A DNA stretch of 64,000 nucleotides, taken from NCBI RefSeq assembly GCF_031085175.1, contig NZ_JAVHUY010000018.1:1-64000 (forward strand). The letters run 5' to 3'. Of this stretch, positions 56,966 to 64,000 are shown in pieces (within the stretch, counting starts at the first letter, position 1; the number at the start of each line of letters is the position of its first letter). Source of the DNA: Phytohabitans maris. GTDB taxonomy: Bacteria > Actinomycetota > Actinomycetes > Mycobacteriales > Micromonosporaceae. The position numbers and the translations under genes are program-made. Under the pieces are notes generated by a model. That model saw only the letters and a program-made list of their open reading frames with translations, was not told the origin of the DNA and ran no database searches.

Positions 56966-57331
56966 ATGGCTCGCCGTCTGATCCCCGACGCCGATATCCG
57001 CAACGACGAAGACCTGCTCAACATGCTGGAAGGCATCCGCGCTGTTGGCCTGGCCGGGCACGACGAGATCGACGAGTTGGCCGGGCTGATCCGGGTGAAG
57101 ATCGAACGGTATGGCCGCCGCAACGGCCTGTCCCGGATGCGGGCGAAGTTCTGGGGCCGCCAGGTCGCCCGCCCCCTCGTGCGCGCGGCCGACGAGATGC
57201 TCGCGGTCGCCGCCTACGCGCGGGTGTGCCGCAACCGGTTCGAGGCGTTCCTGATCGCCTTGGACGACGAGAAGCCCGGCGCCGGTGACTTCACCGTCCG
57301 CGCCCGCGACAACGGCAGCAGGGCTGCCTGA
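56966..57331 (+). CDS. TraA-like plasmid transfer-associated protein
   Basis: The 121-residue helical protein has a basic middle (RVKIERYGRRNGLSRMRAKFWGR) and ends with a helix containing ADEMLAVAAYARVCRNRFEAFL. Its size, its place directly before the FtsK gene (one-base TGATG overlap) and its style fit the small TraA-type proteins before TraB in actinomycete elements. The family call is weak. It begins the transfer unit after the terminator; GGAAAGG precedes its start. Confidence 0.55.
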   Translation: MARRLIPDADIRNDEDLLNMLEGIRAVGLAGHDEIDELAGLIRVKIERYGRRNGLSRMRAKFWGRQVARPLVRAADEMLAVAAYARVCRNRFEAFLIALDDEKPGAGDFTVRARDNGSRAA

Positions 57332-59364
57332 TGGCCCGGCAGAGCCGCGGTATCCGTGGCACCGACGTGGCGCGGGGCGCCTACCGCGAAGTGAAGCAAA
57401 GCCCGTGGCCGTACGTGATCCCACCGATCGCGGCGGTGGGCAACCTGATCCTGTCCGGGATCCTGTCGCTGATCTGGGGCGCCTACGCCCAGCCCACCGT
57501 GTGGGAAGTGGCATGGCGGGCCGCGCTCGTGCTCGGCTGCTCCGCGGCGATCGTGTGGACCACTTGGGGTGTCGGTCGGGCTCGGAAGATGGAGCTGCGG
57601 GCCGCGTCGCTGCTGATGGCCACCGGCTCGTGTGTGGGCCTGTTCGTGCTCACCTTCCGCGGCTGGTCCCGCGATTCGGTGCTGGTCTACCTGCTGGTGA
57701 TGGTCACCGCCTCGATCCTGCTGGCCACAACCAAGCTGCTGCGCGGCGACGGCACCGACGCCCGCGCGAACCTGTTCGGCGAACTGGGCGAGCGGGTCAA
57801 GGAGTTGCAGGACGTCGGTCAGACCGGCAGGCCGAAGGTGGTCGACGGCCGGATCGTGACGCACACCGAGATGGTGCCCGGCGCCGACTTCAACAGCCTG
57901 GCCAAGCCGGATGTCCGCACCGCGATCGCCTCGGCGCTCGATGTGCCGCCGGGCGGGGTGCGGATGGTGAGGAATCGGAACACGCCCCGGGTGGGGCGGA
58001 TGGAGGTGTCCCCTGTGGACATGCTCGAACACCCGCCGGCCTGGCCCGGCCTGTCCGCCCCCGGCGGCACCATCGGAGCGCCGATCCGGCTGGCGGTTTA
58101 CCAGACCGGTGCGCCGATCCCGCTGCTGCTGCCCGGTAACCCGGCCGCCGGGCAGAACCCGATCGGGGTTCTGCTGCTGCTCGGGCAGTCCGGATCCGGC
58201 AAGACCGAGCTGCAGCTCATGCTGGCTGCCGAAGCGCGTTCCCGCGCGGACAGCGAGGTCGTCTACATCGACGGCCGCAAGGGACTCCAGTTGCCGCGGG
58301 CGTTCCGGGACGCGATGCACGTGTTCATCCACCGCGCCGACGAGGGCGAGCGCTATCTCGACGGGCTGATCCCGGATGTCGCCAAGCGGGCCGGGCAGAT
58401 CGGCGGACACGGGCACGAGCAGTGGACGGCCGGGTGCCGTCGGTGCCCGCCGTTCCGGGTGGTGATCGTGGATGAGGCGAGCAAGTTCGTCGAGTCCGAG
58501 GACACCCTGGTCGAGCTGGCCGAGTCGGTCCGCTCGGTCGGCGTGTTCGTCCTGCTGGGCATCCAGCGGGCGACCGGCGACCGGATGCCTACTAGCGTCC
58601 GGACCACGGTCGGCGGCGTGATCTGCATGGGCGTGCGGGACGTGGGCGAGGGCGCCCGGGTGCTGTCCGAGGAGACCATCGAGGCCGGTGCGGACCCGGG
58701 GTGGAAGAACCGCAAGCCCGGCGCCCTGTACGCCGAGCTGCCGGGCACTGACCCGGACGACTGGTCCCTGCCCGGCCGCACCTTCAAGCCGGACCGGGAT
58801 GCGGTCATCGCCGAACTCGTCGCCCACCTGGCCGGCACCGGTCAGAGCACGACCACGCCGGCCGCGGCACCGGCACCGGCGCCGGCCGTCCCGCTGCCGC
58901 GGGCAGCCGCAGCCATGCCGGAGCGGGAGCGGGCAGGCGAGGACGACGCGGACGACCCGGACGCCGACAACGATCCCGAGTTGGCGCCGCCTCCGGTCGA
59001 TCCGGAGTGCCCGCCGGACGCCGACCCGTACGATCCGATCACCGTCCCGGTACGGGAGCGGATCCCGCTCGACCTCGACCCGGAGGACGGCCGACAGTAC
59101 ACCCCGACTGAGATCCGGCTGATGGTCCGCACCACGATCCTGGCCGCCTACGAGCGAGGCACGCGGCAGGTACGGCCGTCCAACTTCGCCCCGCTCGTCG
59201 ACAAGGTCGGCGACGAAGGACTCAAGCCACCGACCCTGAGCAAGATCCTCGGCGAGTTCTGCCAAGGACCGGCGCCGCTGCTGCGCCGGTCCGAGGACCG
59301 CGGCGTGTACGAAATCCTTCCGCCGCAGGGCAGCCCGAGCCCGGCGCTCGCCGAGGCCGCCTGA
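57331..59364 (+). CDS. traB: FtsK/SpoIIIE-type DNA translocase (TraB/TraSA-like)
   Basis: The 677-residue protein is the single-protein conjugation motor of AICEs, which moves double-stranded DNA between hyphae as a membrane hexamer. Four N-terminal membrane helices (about 25-130) are followed by the motor domain with Walker A GQSGSGKT (285-292) and Walker B VVIVDEASKF (about 377-386). A linker rich in Ala/Pro/Asp and a C-terminal winged-helix-like domain (about 590-670) follow. The last should bind the clt repeats; a candidate array lies 290 bp downstream. Confidence 0.93.
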   Translation: MARQSRGIRGTDVARGAYREVKQSPWPYVIPPIAAVGNLILSGILSLIWGAYAQPTVWEVAWRAALVLGCSAAIVWTTWGVGRARKMELRAASLLMATGSCVGLFVLTFRGWSRDSVLVYLLVMVTASILLATTKLLRGDGTDARANLFGELGERVKELQDVGQTGRPKVVDGRIVTHTEMVPGADFNSLAKPDVRTAIASALDVPPGGVRMVRNRNTPRVGRMEVSPVDMLEHPPAWPGLSAPGGTIGAPIRLAVYQTGAPIPLLLPGNPAAGQNPIGVLLLLGQSGSGKTELQLMLAAEARSRADSEVVYIDGRKGLQLPRAFRDAMHVFIHRADEGERYLDGLIPDVAKRAGQIGGHGHEQWTAGCRRCPPFRVVIVDEASKFVESEDTLVELAESVRSVGVFVLLGIQRATGDRMPTSVRTTVGGVICMGVRDVGEGARVLSEETIEAGADPGWKNRKPGALYAELPGTDPDDWSLPGRTFKPDRDAVIAELVAHLAGTGQSTTTPAAAPAPAPAVPLPRAAAAMPERERAGEDDADDPDADNDPELAPPPVDPECPPDADPYDPITVPVRERIPLDLDPEDGRQYTPTEIRLMVRTTILAAYERGTRQVRPSNFAPLVDKVGDEGLKPPTLSKILGEFCQGPAPLLRRSEDRGVYEILPPQGSPSPALAEAA

Positions 59365-59424
59365 ACCCGGGCGCCCGCTGTCCACCCTTTTCCGAAGTCC
59401 TGTGGCCCGAAAGGGGGCTGTCGC

Positions 59425-59598
59425 ATGCGCACGCCCACCATCGCCAACCGGATCCGCCGGGTCGCCGCGTGGCGGCCCGGCGCCCGGCCCGGCGCCCGCG
59501 TCATCAAGATGCTCTGCCCGCACTGCCACCGCTGGCGCTCGCCGCGGTACTTCCGCCGCTACGGCGGCGGCTGCCGCAAATGCATCGGCACCGGCTGA
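59425..59598 (+). CDS. 57-residue zinc-ribbon-like protein
   Basis: The frame from ATG 59425 to TGA 59596-59598 encodes a very basic protein with LCPHC and CRKC, two CxxC pairs about 20 residues apart, consistent with a small zinc ribbon. AAAGGGGG precedes the start at good distance. It lies between traB and the repeat array, so it is the last gene before the presumed cis transfer site. Confidence 0.6.
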   Translation: MRTPTIANRIRRVAAWRPGARPGARVIKMLCPHCHRWRSPRYFRRYGGGCRKCIGTG

Positions 59599-59655
59599 CC
59601 ACGCCCGCACAACCACCCGCGCCCGTCACGCACAGTCACGCGGACGGACGCGTAT

Positions 59656-59768
59656 TTCACGCGCTTCACGCACTTCACGGACTTCACGCGAGCACCCGGA
59701 AACCCCGCCTACGCGTGCGCGTGCGCGCGCGCGAGCCTCCGTGAAGTCCGTGAAGTGAAGTCCGTGAA
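59656..59768. other. inverted array of 9-bp TTCACG repeats: candidate clt/oriT or origin
   Basis: TTCACG begins at 59656, 59665, 59674 and 59683, an exact 9-bp period. The reverse form CGTGAA begins at 59740, 59749 and 59763, with a partial copy at 59755. The 18 bp at 59671-59688 are the exact complement of 59740-59757. The centre holds alternating GCGTGCGCG-type sequence (about 59711-59733). TraB proteins bind tandem 8-bp repeats at clt in related plasmids, so a TraB-bound clt is the best reading; a replication iteron is the alternative. Confidence 0.75.
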
Positions 59769-59803
59769 GTCAAAGGATCATCTACAGAAAGTGATAGTCA
59801 ATC

Positions 59804-60157
59804 ATGGCTTCCTGGTTCCGCCTCGCCCGGCGCGGCGCCGCCAACGAGTTCGGCCGCCGGCTGTGGCGCTGGTTCGCCGCCTTCGAACTCATCCGCTGGC
59901 TGGCCCGCCGGGTCCTGCCGACCCTGCTGATCCTCGTCGCCCTCGCGGTCGCCGTCTGGCTGGCCGTCCGCGCCGCGGGATGGTGGCTGCCCCGGCTGAC
60001 CGCCCTGGCGGCCATCGCCGGCACCCTGGCCGCCGCCGTGTGGCTGGCCCGCCGCTACCGCTGGGAACTACGCGCCGGCCTGCCCCGCACCGCCGTCGCC
60101 GCTCTCGCCCTCGTCGTGGCCGGCGTGCTCGGCACCGCCGTCTATCACCTGCGCTGA
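59804..60157 (+). CDS. small membrane protein (SpdB-like?)
   Basis: The 117-residue protein has a basic N-terminus and three hydrophobic helices (about 38-55, 62-80 and 95-113) with Trp/Arg between them (LARRYRWELRAGLPRT). Its position after the repeat array and close to traB fits small Spd-type spread proteins, but the homology is not certain. The next gene starts 16 bp after its stop. Confidence 0.6.
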   Translation: MASWFRLARRGAANEFGRRLWRWFAAFELIRWLARRVLPTLLILVALAVAVWLAVRAAGWWLPRLTALAAIAGTLAAAVWLARRYRWELRAGLPRTAVAALALVVAGVLGTAVYHLR

Positions 60158-60560: not shown

Positions 60561-61961
60561 ATGCCCGAACACGCGTACCGGGTGCTGGTTACCGGCTCTC
60601 GTACGTGGCCACGACCTGGCGACATCACCACTGCTTTGGACGAGCTGCACGAGCAGCACGGCGGTCGGCTGATCATTGTGCACGGCGCGTGCCCGCGCGG
60701 CGCCGACGCGATCGCGGACGCCTGGTGCCGCCGACGTCGGGTGAACGTCGAGCGGTGGCCGGCGGACTGGTCGATCGGCAACCATGCCGGTCACGTCCGT
60801 AACGCCGCGATGGTGGCCACCGCACCGGCGCTGTGCCTAGCGTTCATCCACGACCGGTCGCCCGGCGCCACCGGCTGCGCCATGCTCGCCAAGGAAGCCA
60901 AGATCCCGACGATTCGGCACCGGCGCGACCAACGGCCCACCGAGATCGCCGCCGCGGTCCGGGCACTGCGGCCGGGCTGGCGGATGTGTACCGGCGGCTG
61001 CGGCTGGCCCGTCGATCCCGCCATCGGCTGCGGCAACCACCCGACCTGCCCGGCACCGGACAACGGCCGCGGCTGGCACGGCGCCGGAGCGGACCTGCTG
61101 CCGGCTGCGTTCGCGCTAGCCCGCGATGGCCTGCCGGTGTTCTGGCTCGGCCGCACCAAACGCCCGGTCGCCAACTGTCCCGCCTGCCCGAAGGTCGAAG
61201 ACGACCCCGACCACGACCCCGAGGCGTGCACCTGTCTGACCTGTCACGGGTTCTACGCCGCCAGCATCGACCCGGACCGGATCGCGGCGATGCACGCCGC
61301 CGTCCCGGGCGGCATGCTCGCCATCCGCACTGGCACCGCATCTGGCCGGGTGGTGATCGACATCGACCCGCGCAACGGCGGCACGGTGCTGCCCGAGCTG
61401 ATGCCGCCCACCCGGTGCGCCCGTACCGGCTCCGGCGGCTGGCACCTGCACTACCGCCACCCCGGCGGCAAGCTCGCCGGCAAGCTGCACGGGCATCCGG
61501 GGATCGACATCAAGGCCGACGGTGGGTACGTCGTCGCCCCACCCTCGATCCACCCGGCCACCCGACAGCCGTACCGGTGGGTGGGGGACCGGCCAGTGAT
61601 TGAGATGCCCCCGCCGCTGATCGTCGCCTGCCGACCCGCCGAGCCGCCGCCAGGCGTCGGCCCGCCCGCCGCGCCGACCCCGACGACGAGGGGACGGGGC
61701 ATCTCATCTGCTGACGCCCTGCTGGCCGCACACCTCGACGCGCTCGCCCGAGCACCCGAAGGCCGACGCCGCACCACGCTCTACGGCGTGGCCCGCGGGG
61801 TCGCCCGGATGGTCGCCGCGGACGCGATCACGTCCGGCGACGCGTACGCCGTGCTCTACCGAGCCGGCCGAGCGGCCGGGCAGAGCGACCGGGACACCCG
61901 CGCCGCGATCGCGGACGGTTTCCGGCACGAATCCGTTGCCACCGAAGGGATCCCCGCGTGA
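60561..61961 (+). CDS. SLOG (DUF2493)-Prim-Pol fusion, element replication protein
   Basis: The 466-residue protein joins two domains. Residues about 5-135 are a SLOG/DUF2493 domain (VLVTGSRTWPRPGDI, IVHGACPRGADAIAD). A Cys-rich linker (CTGGCGWPVDPAIGCG...CPAC) leads to a primase-polymerase domain (about 175-350) with VVIDIDPRNGG (catalytic DxD), SGGWHLHY and GIDIKADGGYVVAPPS. The C-terminal helical tail resembles primase helper domains. Prim-Pol proteins initiate replication of one AICE class. The fused SLOG, a nucleotide-binding sensor fold, is unusual. Confidence 0.85.
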   Translation: MPEHAYRVLVTGSRTWPRPGDITTALDELHEQHGGRLIIVHGACPRGADAIADAWCRRRRVNVERWPADWSIGNHAGHVRNAAMVATAPALCLAFIHDRSPGATGCAMLAKEAKIPTIRHRRDQRPTEIAAAVRALRPGWRMCTGGCGWPVDPAIGCGNHPTCPAPDNGRGWHGAGADLLPAAFALARDGLPVFWLGRTKRPVANCPACPKVEDDPDHDPEACTCLTCHGFYAASIDPDRIAAMHAAVPGGMLAIRTGTASGRVVIDIDPRNGGTVLPELMPPTRCARTGSGGWHLHYRHPGGKLAGKLHGHPGIDIKADGGYVVAPPSIHPATRQPYRWVGDRPVIEMPPPLIVACRPAEPPPGVGPPAAPTPTTRGRGISSADALLAAHLDALARAPEGRRRTTLYGVARGVARMVAADAITSGDAYAVLYRAGRAAGQSDRDTRAAIADGFRHESVATEGIPA

Positions 61962-63526: not shown

Positions 63527-64000
63527 ATGACCGAACCGACCGACACCGAGACAGCCGTGGGCGGCGCGATCCTCGACCGCCTCCACCAGATCATCACCCG
63601 CTATGTGATCCTGCCCAGCCCGGAAGCCCTCGACGCGGTCGTGCTGTGGACCGCGGCCACCCACGGGCAGCCGGCATGGGCGCACGCCCCGCGGCTGGTC
63701 ATCCGGGCGCCGGAGAAGCGGTGCGGCAAGTCCCGACTGCTCGACGTCGTGGAGGGCACCTGCTACAGCCCGCTGATCACCGTCAACGCCTCCACCCCGG
63801 CCGTGTACCGGTCGATCGGCGGAGACGACCCGCCGACCATCCTGCTGGATGAGGCCGACACGATCTTCGGCGGCAAGCAGGCCGAGGCCAACGAGGACCT
63901 GCGCGGCCTGCTGAATGCCGGCCACCAGCGCAACCGGCCGACCATCCGCTGGAACCAGCAGCAACAGCAGGTCGAGCGGATCGCCACCTTCGCCATGGCC
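63527..64000 (+). CDS. DUF3631 domain protein (partial)
   Basis: The gene starts at ATG 63527 and is open to the window end (158 codons). It shows a Walker A-like APEKRCGKSRLL (about 65-76) and Walker B TILLDEADTIF, followed by GGKQAEANEDLRGLLNAGH, the DUF3631 pattern found with Prim-Pol genes in AICEs. It is probably the replicative helicase or loader of the element. It starts 5 bp after the methyltransferase stop. Confidence 0.85.
   Translation, partial: MTEPTDTETAVGGAILDRLHQIITRYVILPSPEALDAVVLWTAATHGQPAWAHAPRLVIRAPEKRCGKSRLLDVVEGTCYSPLITVNASTPAVYRSIGGDDPPTILLDEADTIFGGKQAEANEDLRGLLNAGHQRNRPTIRWNQQQQQVERIATFAMA

Follow-up and report, generated by a model that had tools for sequence, protein, structure and literature searches.

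The closest described counterparts of the locus analysed here are clt loci, which lie behind the TraB-type genes of plasmids. In the excerpts of PMC3583192 available for this comparison, the clt of pWTY27 is given as a 175-bp segment (16 bp inside tra and 159 bp behind it) that is involved in transfer; 87 bp of this segment are called essential, and the Tra protein footprints four copies of TGACACC. The clt of pJV1 is described there as nine CCGCACA[C/G][C/G] repeats of 9 bp. The same excerpts place the RepA iterons of pWTY27 elsewhere than its clt, call pJV1 a rolling-circle plasmid and have the TraB of pSVH1 read 8-bp repeats via its helix alpha-3. The accessible parts of the literature also describe TraB as assembling into a hexamer at clt.

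We analysed the first 64,000 nucleotides of contig NZ_JAVHUY010000018.1 of Phytohabitans maris (assembly GCF_031085175.1), a stretch referred to below as the window. A preliminary description had drawn attention to an inverted array of TTCACG repeats at 59656-59768, behind a traB gene, as a candidate clt or origin whose code might be matched to the winged helix of this TraB. Our sequence comparisons suggest, with a probability that we put at roughly 0.86, that the array is the putative clt of an actinomycete integrative conjugative element (AICE), and that it would be read by helix alpha-3 of TraB for the transfer of double-stranded DNA.

The array and its surroundings

In the order of the window, ssb and a small gene precede traB, a 57-aa ORF separates traB from the array, and the array is followed by genes for a small membrane protein and a Prim-Pol. 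The features are listed below, where the clade is the set of 15 close TraB relatives described in the next section.

56966..57331, + strand: small conserved gene directly 5' of traB, 121 aa, traA-like by position only
57331..59364, + strand: traB-type DNA translocase, 677 aa, with a match to NCBIfam NF041214 (plasmid_TraB)
59104..59316, + strand: predicted C-terminal winged-helix domain of TraB, residues 592-662 (AlphaFold2 model, alignment)
59224..59259, + strand: putative recognition helix alpha-3, KPPTLSKILGEF, residues 632-643, of all segments the one whose similarity follows the repeat code most closely
59425..59598, + strand: small ORF between traB and the array, 57 aa, without a match at that place in 6 of 15 clade loci
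59656..59688, + strand: left arm, four TTCACG cores in exact 9-bp steps
59671..59757, no strand: 18-bp perfect inverted repeat made of the innermost repeats of both arms
59689..59739, no strand: centre between the arms, 51 bp, with an alternating CG/TG tract at 59711-59733
59740..59768, + strand: right arm, CGTGAA at 59740, 59749 and 59763, GTGAA at 59755
59804..60157, + strand: small membrane-protein gene directly 3' of the array, 117 aa, with a homologue in 15 of 15 clade loci
60561..61961, + strand: Prim-Pol, SLOG-like domain at its N-terminus, part of the AICE replication module (Pfam PF09250, PF10686)
63527..64000, + strand: start of a DUF3631 (RepAM-type) gene that ends at contig position 64717
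contig 65424-66698, beyond the window end: tyrosine integrase
contig 66777-66864, beyond the window: tRNA-Ser, adjoining the integrase

The excerpt of PMC3218068 describes an AICE as containing integrase, replication and transfer genes, and the array sits in such an element: traB, a replication module (Prim-Pol and DUF3631) and a tyrosine integrase are found in one block. A search for att repeats returned no exact repeat of at least 16 bp of the tRNA-Ser/integrase region within the window. The 117-aa membrane protein, for which Pfam and NCBIfam gave no match, is possibly the product of an spd gene, a guess made from position.

The layout of the array agrees closely with what the preliminary description reported. 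Its left-arm cores start at 59656, 59665, 59674 and 59683, at the exact 9-bp period claimed, and its count of "three or four" CGTGAA repeats is fair for a right arm with three complete copies and one GTGAA. Strict 9-bp periodicity is absent from the right arm, where the steps between CGTGAA copies are 9 and 14 bp. Both the 18-bp perfect inverted repeat (59671-59688 and 59740-59757) and the alternating GC centre, a tract of 23 bp in which purines and pyrimidines alternate, are present, and the gap between the traB stop codon and the array is 291 bp, where 290 bp had been given.

The array is real, and it is not a product of chance. Sites within three mismatches of GTGAAGTCCGTGAAG number seven in the window, five of them in the array, against 1.46 expected, and seven sites were reached in 0 of 100 shuffles. 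In the 9.87-Mb genome (95 contigs), the 15-mer CGTGAAGTCCGTGAA has exact matches in the array only; with at most one mismatch, one site lies outside the array and the reversed control gives none. A looser 18-base pattern with at most one mismatch yielded 10 genome sites, three of them in the array, and one site for its reversed control. The seven sites outside the array lie far from one another, and this pattern therefore reveals no second array in the 95 contigs. Against plasmids, the array DNA gave three short matches only. A 31-bp match to the left arm (93.5%, E 4e-3) occurs at NZ_CP013104.1:12933-12963 and at NZ_CP015960.1:1823352-1823382, two Paraburkholderia replicons with no listed gene at either site.

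In their layout, facing iteron arms on either side of a spacer are reminiscent of certain origins of phages, satellites and plasmids. As a replication origin, the array would consist of iterons for the Prim-Pol and DUF3631 proteins, which would open the duplex between the arms once the element is excised, a reading that we regard as unlikely. The 51-bp centre is approximately 78% G+C (40 of 51), and an A+T-rich unwinding element is not found there; an A+T-richer stretch lies 3' of the right arm, at 59769-59803. It is also conceivable, at still lower odds, that the array is the operator or promoter of an operon of the spd-like membrane-protein gene, with a specific repressor binding there. The start codon of that gene lies 35 bp 3' of the right arm, but a search of 59200-60000 gave no sigma-70-like promoter or terminator, with the proviso that actinomycete promoters may be missed in this way.

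The product of traB matched NF041214 over residues 27-665 (E 5.4e-86) with 289.5 bits, the curated cut-off being 800, and matched Pfam AAA_22 at E 1.1e-4, under the family cut-off. Its closest named relatives are from Actinoplanes and Paractinoplanes, and TraB matches were obtained in 51 plasmid records. In the AlphaFold2 model of the C-terminal domain (mean pLDDT 72.1), three helices and strands are arranged as in a winged helix, and the helix at 60-69 of the fragment (TraB residues 633-642) falls at the alpha-3 segment. The model is consistent with a cognate FtsK-like TraB that carries a C-terminal winged helix. A search of PDB sequences gave nothing convincing (best E 0.0076, calmodulin), and Foldseek against the PDB gave no match at E <= 0.001, some winged-helix domains being among the weak matches.

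The same array beside close TraB relatives

The preliminary description had proposed looking for these repeats beside close traB homologues; they were found, at the same place, in all 15 homologues that are at least 65% identical. From 28 TraB matches we used 19 and left out nine weaker ones (E 5.5e-7 to 7.6e-4), and L006-L009, whose contigs match those of L064, L057, L056 and L063 in length, were counted once with them. The 15 clade genes encode TraB proteins 65-100% identical, and each is followed by a TTCACG/CGTGAA array and then by the same small membrane-protein gene. The same array lies 3' of traB in four of four homologues from named genomes. Across the 15 members, the array starts 21-300 bp 3' of traB, the left arm holds two to five cores and the centre measures 51-60 bp. 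Its consensus unit is CGTGAAGT(G/C), derived from 49 left and 48 right copies, and, of 66 same-strand steps no longer than 20 bp, 53 measure exactly 9 bp. An alternating run of at least 10 bp occurs within 350 bp of traB in 14 of the 15 loci, the window's own tract lying beyond that distance.

A scan of 354 genomes of the family with a pattern of two repeats per arm returned 15 array loci in 14 genomes and none with the reversed control. In 14 of these loci the array adjoins this TraB, the exception being genome G282. Ten of the 15 loci were already known via TraB, and the blind part of the scan is therefore five loci, four of which have TraB. The pattern failed to pick up genome G011, which has this TraB, owing to a 16-bp step; the array is present there on reading. 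A sixteenth TraB (L123, IMG/VR UViG_2855698653) was read after the statistics and stands outside all counts. It is 62% identical and has an array with five right-arm copies and a degenerate left arm; its contig is filed as viral and is probably an AICE, not a virus.

The 18-bp inverted repeat might suggest that the arms form an RNA hairpin acting as a terminator or regulatory leader, which we consider scarcely credible. The cores are constant across the clade but the spacers of the arms differ, those of the left arm being mostly GTG (20 of 49) and those of the right arm mostly GTC (19 of 48); a hairpin would also have to span the 51-60 nt of the centre, no terminator-like site was found, and the TGACACC and CGCACA arrays of other loci are mostly direct repeats. 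We set the hairpin aside on the ground that the spacers are non-complementary across the clade and full pairing is not kept. An origin would fit the position of Prim-Pol, which in each of the 15 clade loci lies approximately 0.75-5.6 kb away from the array; origin and clt are thereby inseparable within the clade. The membrane-protein gene after the array in every clade locus speaks for an operator.

The exception in the scan, L067:10108-10211 (G282:C63), is a clearly related TTCACG array that shares the arms and the CG centre. It lies in an element of integrase and phage genes that lacks traB; encoded there, besides the integrase, are a repressor, an O-like initiator and a tape-measure-like protein. 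TraB was not found in the G282 genome by a search made without a positive control in that genome. L067 is possibly a hitchhiker. Comparison of the L067 array and of TraB with phages gave no matches.

Three further loci were noted on reading. In genome G011 (L070:11831-12544, G011:C5), a 237-aa protein encoded after the array carries a free-standing domain that resembles the winged helix of TraB (33% identity to TraB residues 583-676) and has no Pfam match. On an IMG/VR contig (L055:1136-1223), facing TTCACG arms lie behind a helicase-like gene whose product ends in a helix-turn-helix, and this phage contig reads as a similar layout with another motor. On another, phage-like IMG/VR contig (L054:7882-8073), intergenic TTCACGGTC arrays surround an A+T-rich centre.

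Two of these loci bear on the origin reading. The traB-less L067 has its O-like initiator, and the array of L055 stands directly behind a gene read as a replicative helicase. An origin keeps some probability because a Prim-Pol lies near every clade array and because of L067.

Repeat codes behind distant TraB genes

We extended the comparison to 64 TraB loci, comprising the 15 clade loci, two further sets of 12 and 22, and 15 plasmids out of the 51 matching plasmid records. Arrays were sought in the last 20 coding bases of traB and the first 230 bp behind it, at shuffle p <= 0.05. A tandem array was detected at 40 of the 49 loci outside the clade; pWTY27, whose clt is experimentally established, is among the nine that fail. 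Eight of the 15 clade loci failed the test, their arrays being located for the most part past the 230-bp limit, and another core accounted for the pass of L058; counts for the clade were taken from core positions instead. The mean array score over the 64 loci was 5.6 behind traB, 2.8 at 300-550 bp (a control stretch that includes some clade arrays) and 2.4 upstream, these being means only. An expectation-maximisation motif finder proved far too permissive and stands behind no claim.

The two published clt loci fall at the same place behind their TraB gene. At pJV1, the detector returned CGCACA. At pWTY27, it returned CCGCCC at p 0.069, resembling CCCGCCC, the second repeat given in the excerpts of PMC3583192; on reading, TGACACC was present in four forward copies and one reverse copy. 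Other repeats outside the clade include GTCCA, TTCCA, TTTCCA, GTCCGG, TGCCACG and GTGCGCA, besides TGACACC, CGCACA and others, with cores taken partly by eye. Facing arms were found in the window clade and in L081, L082 and L101, and the TGACACC, GTCCA and CGCACA arrays are mostly direct. Alternating tracts of at least 12 bp occur within 350 bp behind traB at 17 of 62 loci, a count made without two loci that have less than 250 bp behind traB, and upstream of it at 0 of 61.

Arrays thus placed beside TraBs with other replication systems, those of pWTY27 and pJV1 as far as the excerpts describe them, argue against an origin. In the distant set of 12 loci, a Prim-Pol is found in five (L077, L078, L079, L082 and L081), in favour of an origin; none was found in the other seven, a weak point against one, with only one or two ORFs per locus scanned for families. 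At L077:850-946 (G062:C49), TraB is only 28% identical, the Prim-Pol is 64% identical over 107 residues and the repeat is still TTTCACG, in 12-bp steps. This locus may be a case for a link to replication, or for a convergent code. With regard to an operator, no homologue of the membrane-protein gene was found in the same 12 loci (which include L077-L079, L081 and L082), though arrays are present there.

A small membrane-protein-like ORF follows the array at several distant loci, by reading, which an operator would also accommodate.

We then compared repeat codes with segments of TraB at 62 of the 64 loci, after removal of L102, which has an odd C-terminus, and L107, which is truncated by the end of its record. 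Code similarity was based on 6-mers recurring in the 350 bp that follow the stop codon, and segment identities came from one TraB alignment. Within motor clusters and with the window clade out (123 pairs), code correlated with alpha-3 given the motor at r 0.37, a value reached in 0 of 2000 permutations. Given the wing the value was 0.44 and given the N-terminal domain 0.50, with a range of 0.37-0.50 over all other segments (0 of 1000 permutations each). With alpha-3 given, in turn, the values were 0.33 for the N-terminal domain (10 of 1000 permutations), 0.20 for the motor (37 of 1000), 0.16 for the alpha-1 region (49 of 1000), 0.08 for the wing (74 of 1000) and 0.08 for alpha-2 (155 of 1000). 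The wing is encoded nearer the array than alpha-3 and yet its association is weak, which argues against mere co-inheritance of neighbouring DNA. When the window clade was included, the permutation null moved off zero and every segment passed, even with near-zero values for the wing, and our claim therefore rests on the test without this clade.

The same trend is visible in simple counts. Among the 47 loci outside the window clade, pairs with motors at least 55% identical shared their code in 1 of 32 cases when alpha-3 was less than 50% identical, in 19 of 42 at 50-67% and in 30 of 35 at 67% or above. Over all pairs, with the last 20 coding bases included, code was associated with C-terminal-domain identity beyond the motor (0 of 500 permutations), at 0.13-0.18 for the domain given the motor and 0.22-0.23 for the motor given the domain. 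Control regions 5' of traB, or 350-600 bp past its end, showed weak or no association (14 of 500 in the strongest of eight tests). Partial correlations over the whole set were modest and non-specific (N-terminal domain 0.24-0.27, alpha-3 0.21-0.23), and the claim about the code therefore rests on the within-cluster tests. In a scan by column, alpha-3 columns 634 and 638 ranked third and fourth of 453, with one alpha-2 column and one motor column above them.

Individual loci illustrate the pattern. L113 and L120 have the code TGACACC and an alpha-3 that starts with SRPW; their motors are 64-69% identical to the CGCACA group and only 56-60% identical to the TGACACC group whose code they share. 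L087 has TAACACC with SRSWVSL, and its relatives have TGACACC with SRPWVS. These results suggest that, outside the window clade, the repeat follows alpha-3 beyond motor similarity, as judged by co-variation. Together with the two published clt loci, they support the earlier suggestion that the code is matched to the winged helix of TraB. Of the two functions first offered for the array, clt is well supported and an origin is disfavoured, one reason being that the code follows alpha-3; the same observation speaks against an operator with its own repressor. An origin or an operator is less likely than a clt, although TraB binding could regulate the membrane-gene operon as a side effect, and the operator and clt roles could coexist.

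A putative clt and its relation to known systems

If the array is a clt, the C-terminal winged helix of TraB would read the unit CGTGAAGT(G/C) through alpha-3, and several consecutive units would seed a TraB hexamer on the double-stranded circle that excision produces. The FtsK-like motor would then pump double-stranded DNA into the recipient. We guess that the two facing arms load hexamers in opposite orientations, and that one hexamer would therefore always point the right way. TraB lineages differ in their repeat, and an element would therefore address mainly itself.

A broader proposal, which we hold only tentatively and think somewhat less probable than its negation, joins three ideas: a self-address system of TraB and array across actinomycetes, arms built like a staircase, and traB-less hitchhikers moved in trans. 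Under the first, a few alpha-3 residues would choose the repeat, each AICE or plasmid would move mainly itself, and codes might change in small steps such as TGACACC to TAACACC or GTCCA to TTCCA. Under the second, each 9-bp step would turn back round the helix by approximately 51 degrees if a turn takes 10.5 bp, which nearly matches the 60 degrees per subunit of a hexamer; one arm might seat neighbouring subunits, and two facing arms two opposed rings. Under the third, elements like L067, with an address and no motor, would be moved in trans by an AICE with the matching TraB. If clt adjoins traB and alpha-3 predicts the repeat, shared and private addresses become testable from sequence, which would also show which traB-less elements carry the address of another. 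The natural swap seen when L113 and L120 are set beside the CGCACA group, together with the one-letter changes of code, offers material from which a code of recognition between protein and DNA could be worked out.

The clt of TraB systems is an already known kind of locus. What is new here is the TTCACG code, the convergent arms with exact 9-bp steps, the alternating-CG centre and a traB-less element with the same array. The open-licence literature searched, as far as its text was accessible, contained none of the TTCACG code, the facing arms, the CG centre, the AICE-wide placement and the co-variation of code and helix, nor a survey of clt arrays or codes behind traB. The array of pWTY27 resembles that of the window in running from the 3' end of tra into intergenic DNA, beside a protein of the TraB family whose alignment indicates a winged helix at the C-terminus; it differs in its TGACACC repeat, mainly direct, in starting inside tra and in belonging to a free plasmid and not an AICE. 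The repeats of pJV1 are units of about the same length directly behind a TraB-type gene, but their code is different, and the four copies seen before the record end cuts the array are all direct, with no facing arms. The TraB of pSVH1 reads its repeats through alpha-3 according to the excerpts, and the mechanism suggested here, in which alpha-3 of the winged helix sets the repeat, is the same. The repeat of pSVH1 is, as the preliminary description states, a different sequence. FtsK and SpoIIIE are motors with a C-terminal winged helix that load on short DNA motifs (KOPS/SRS), and TraB would resemble them as a winged-helix motor loading on short motifs; KOPS are scattered across the chromosome, whereas the window has one clustered array with two facing arms. 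These arms also set the window's array apart from the published clt loci seen here, whose repeats are mainly direct.
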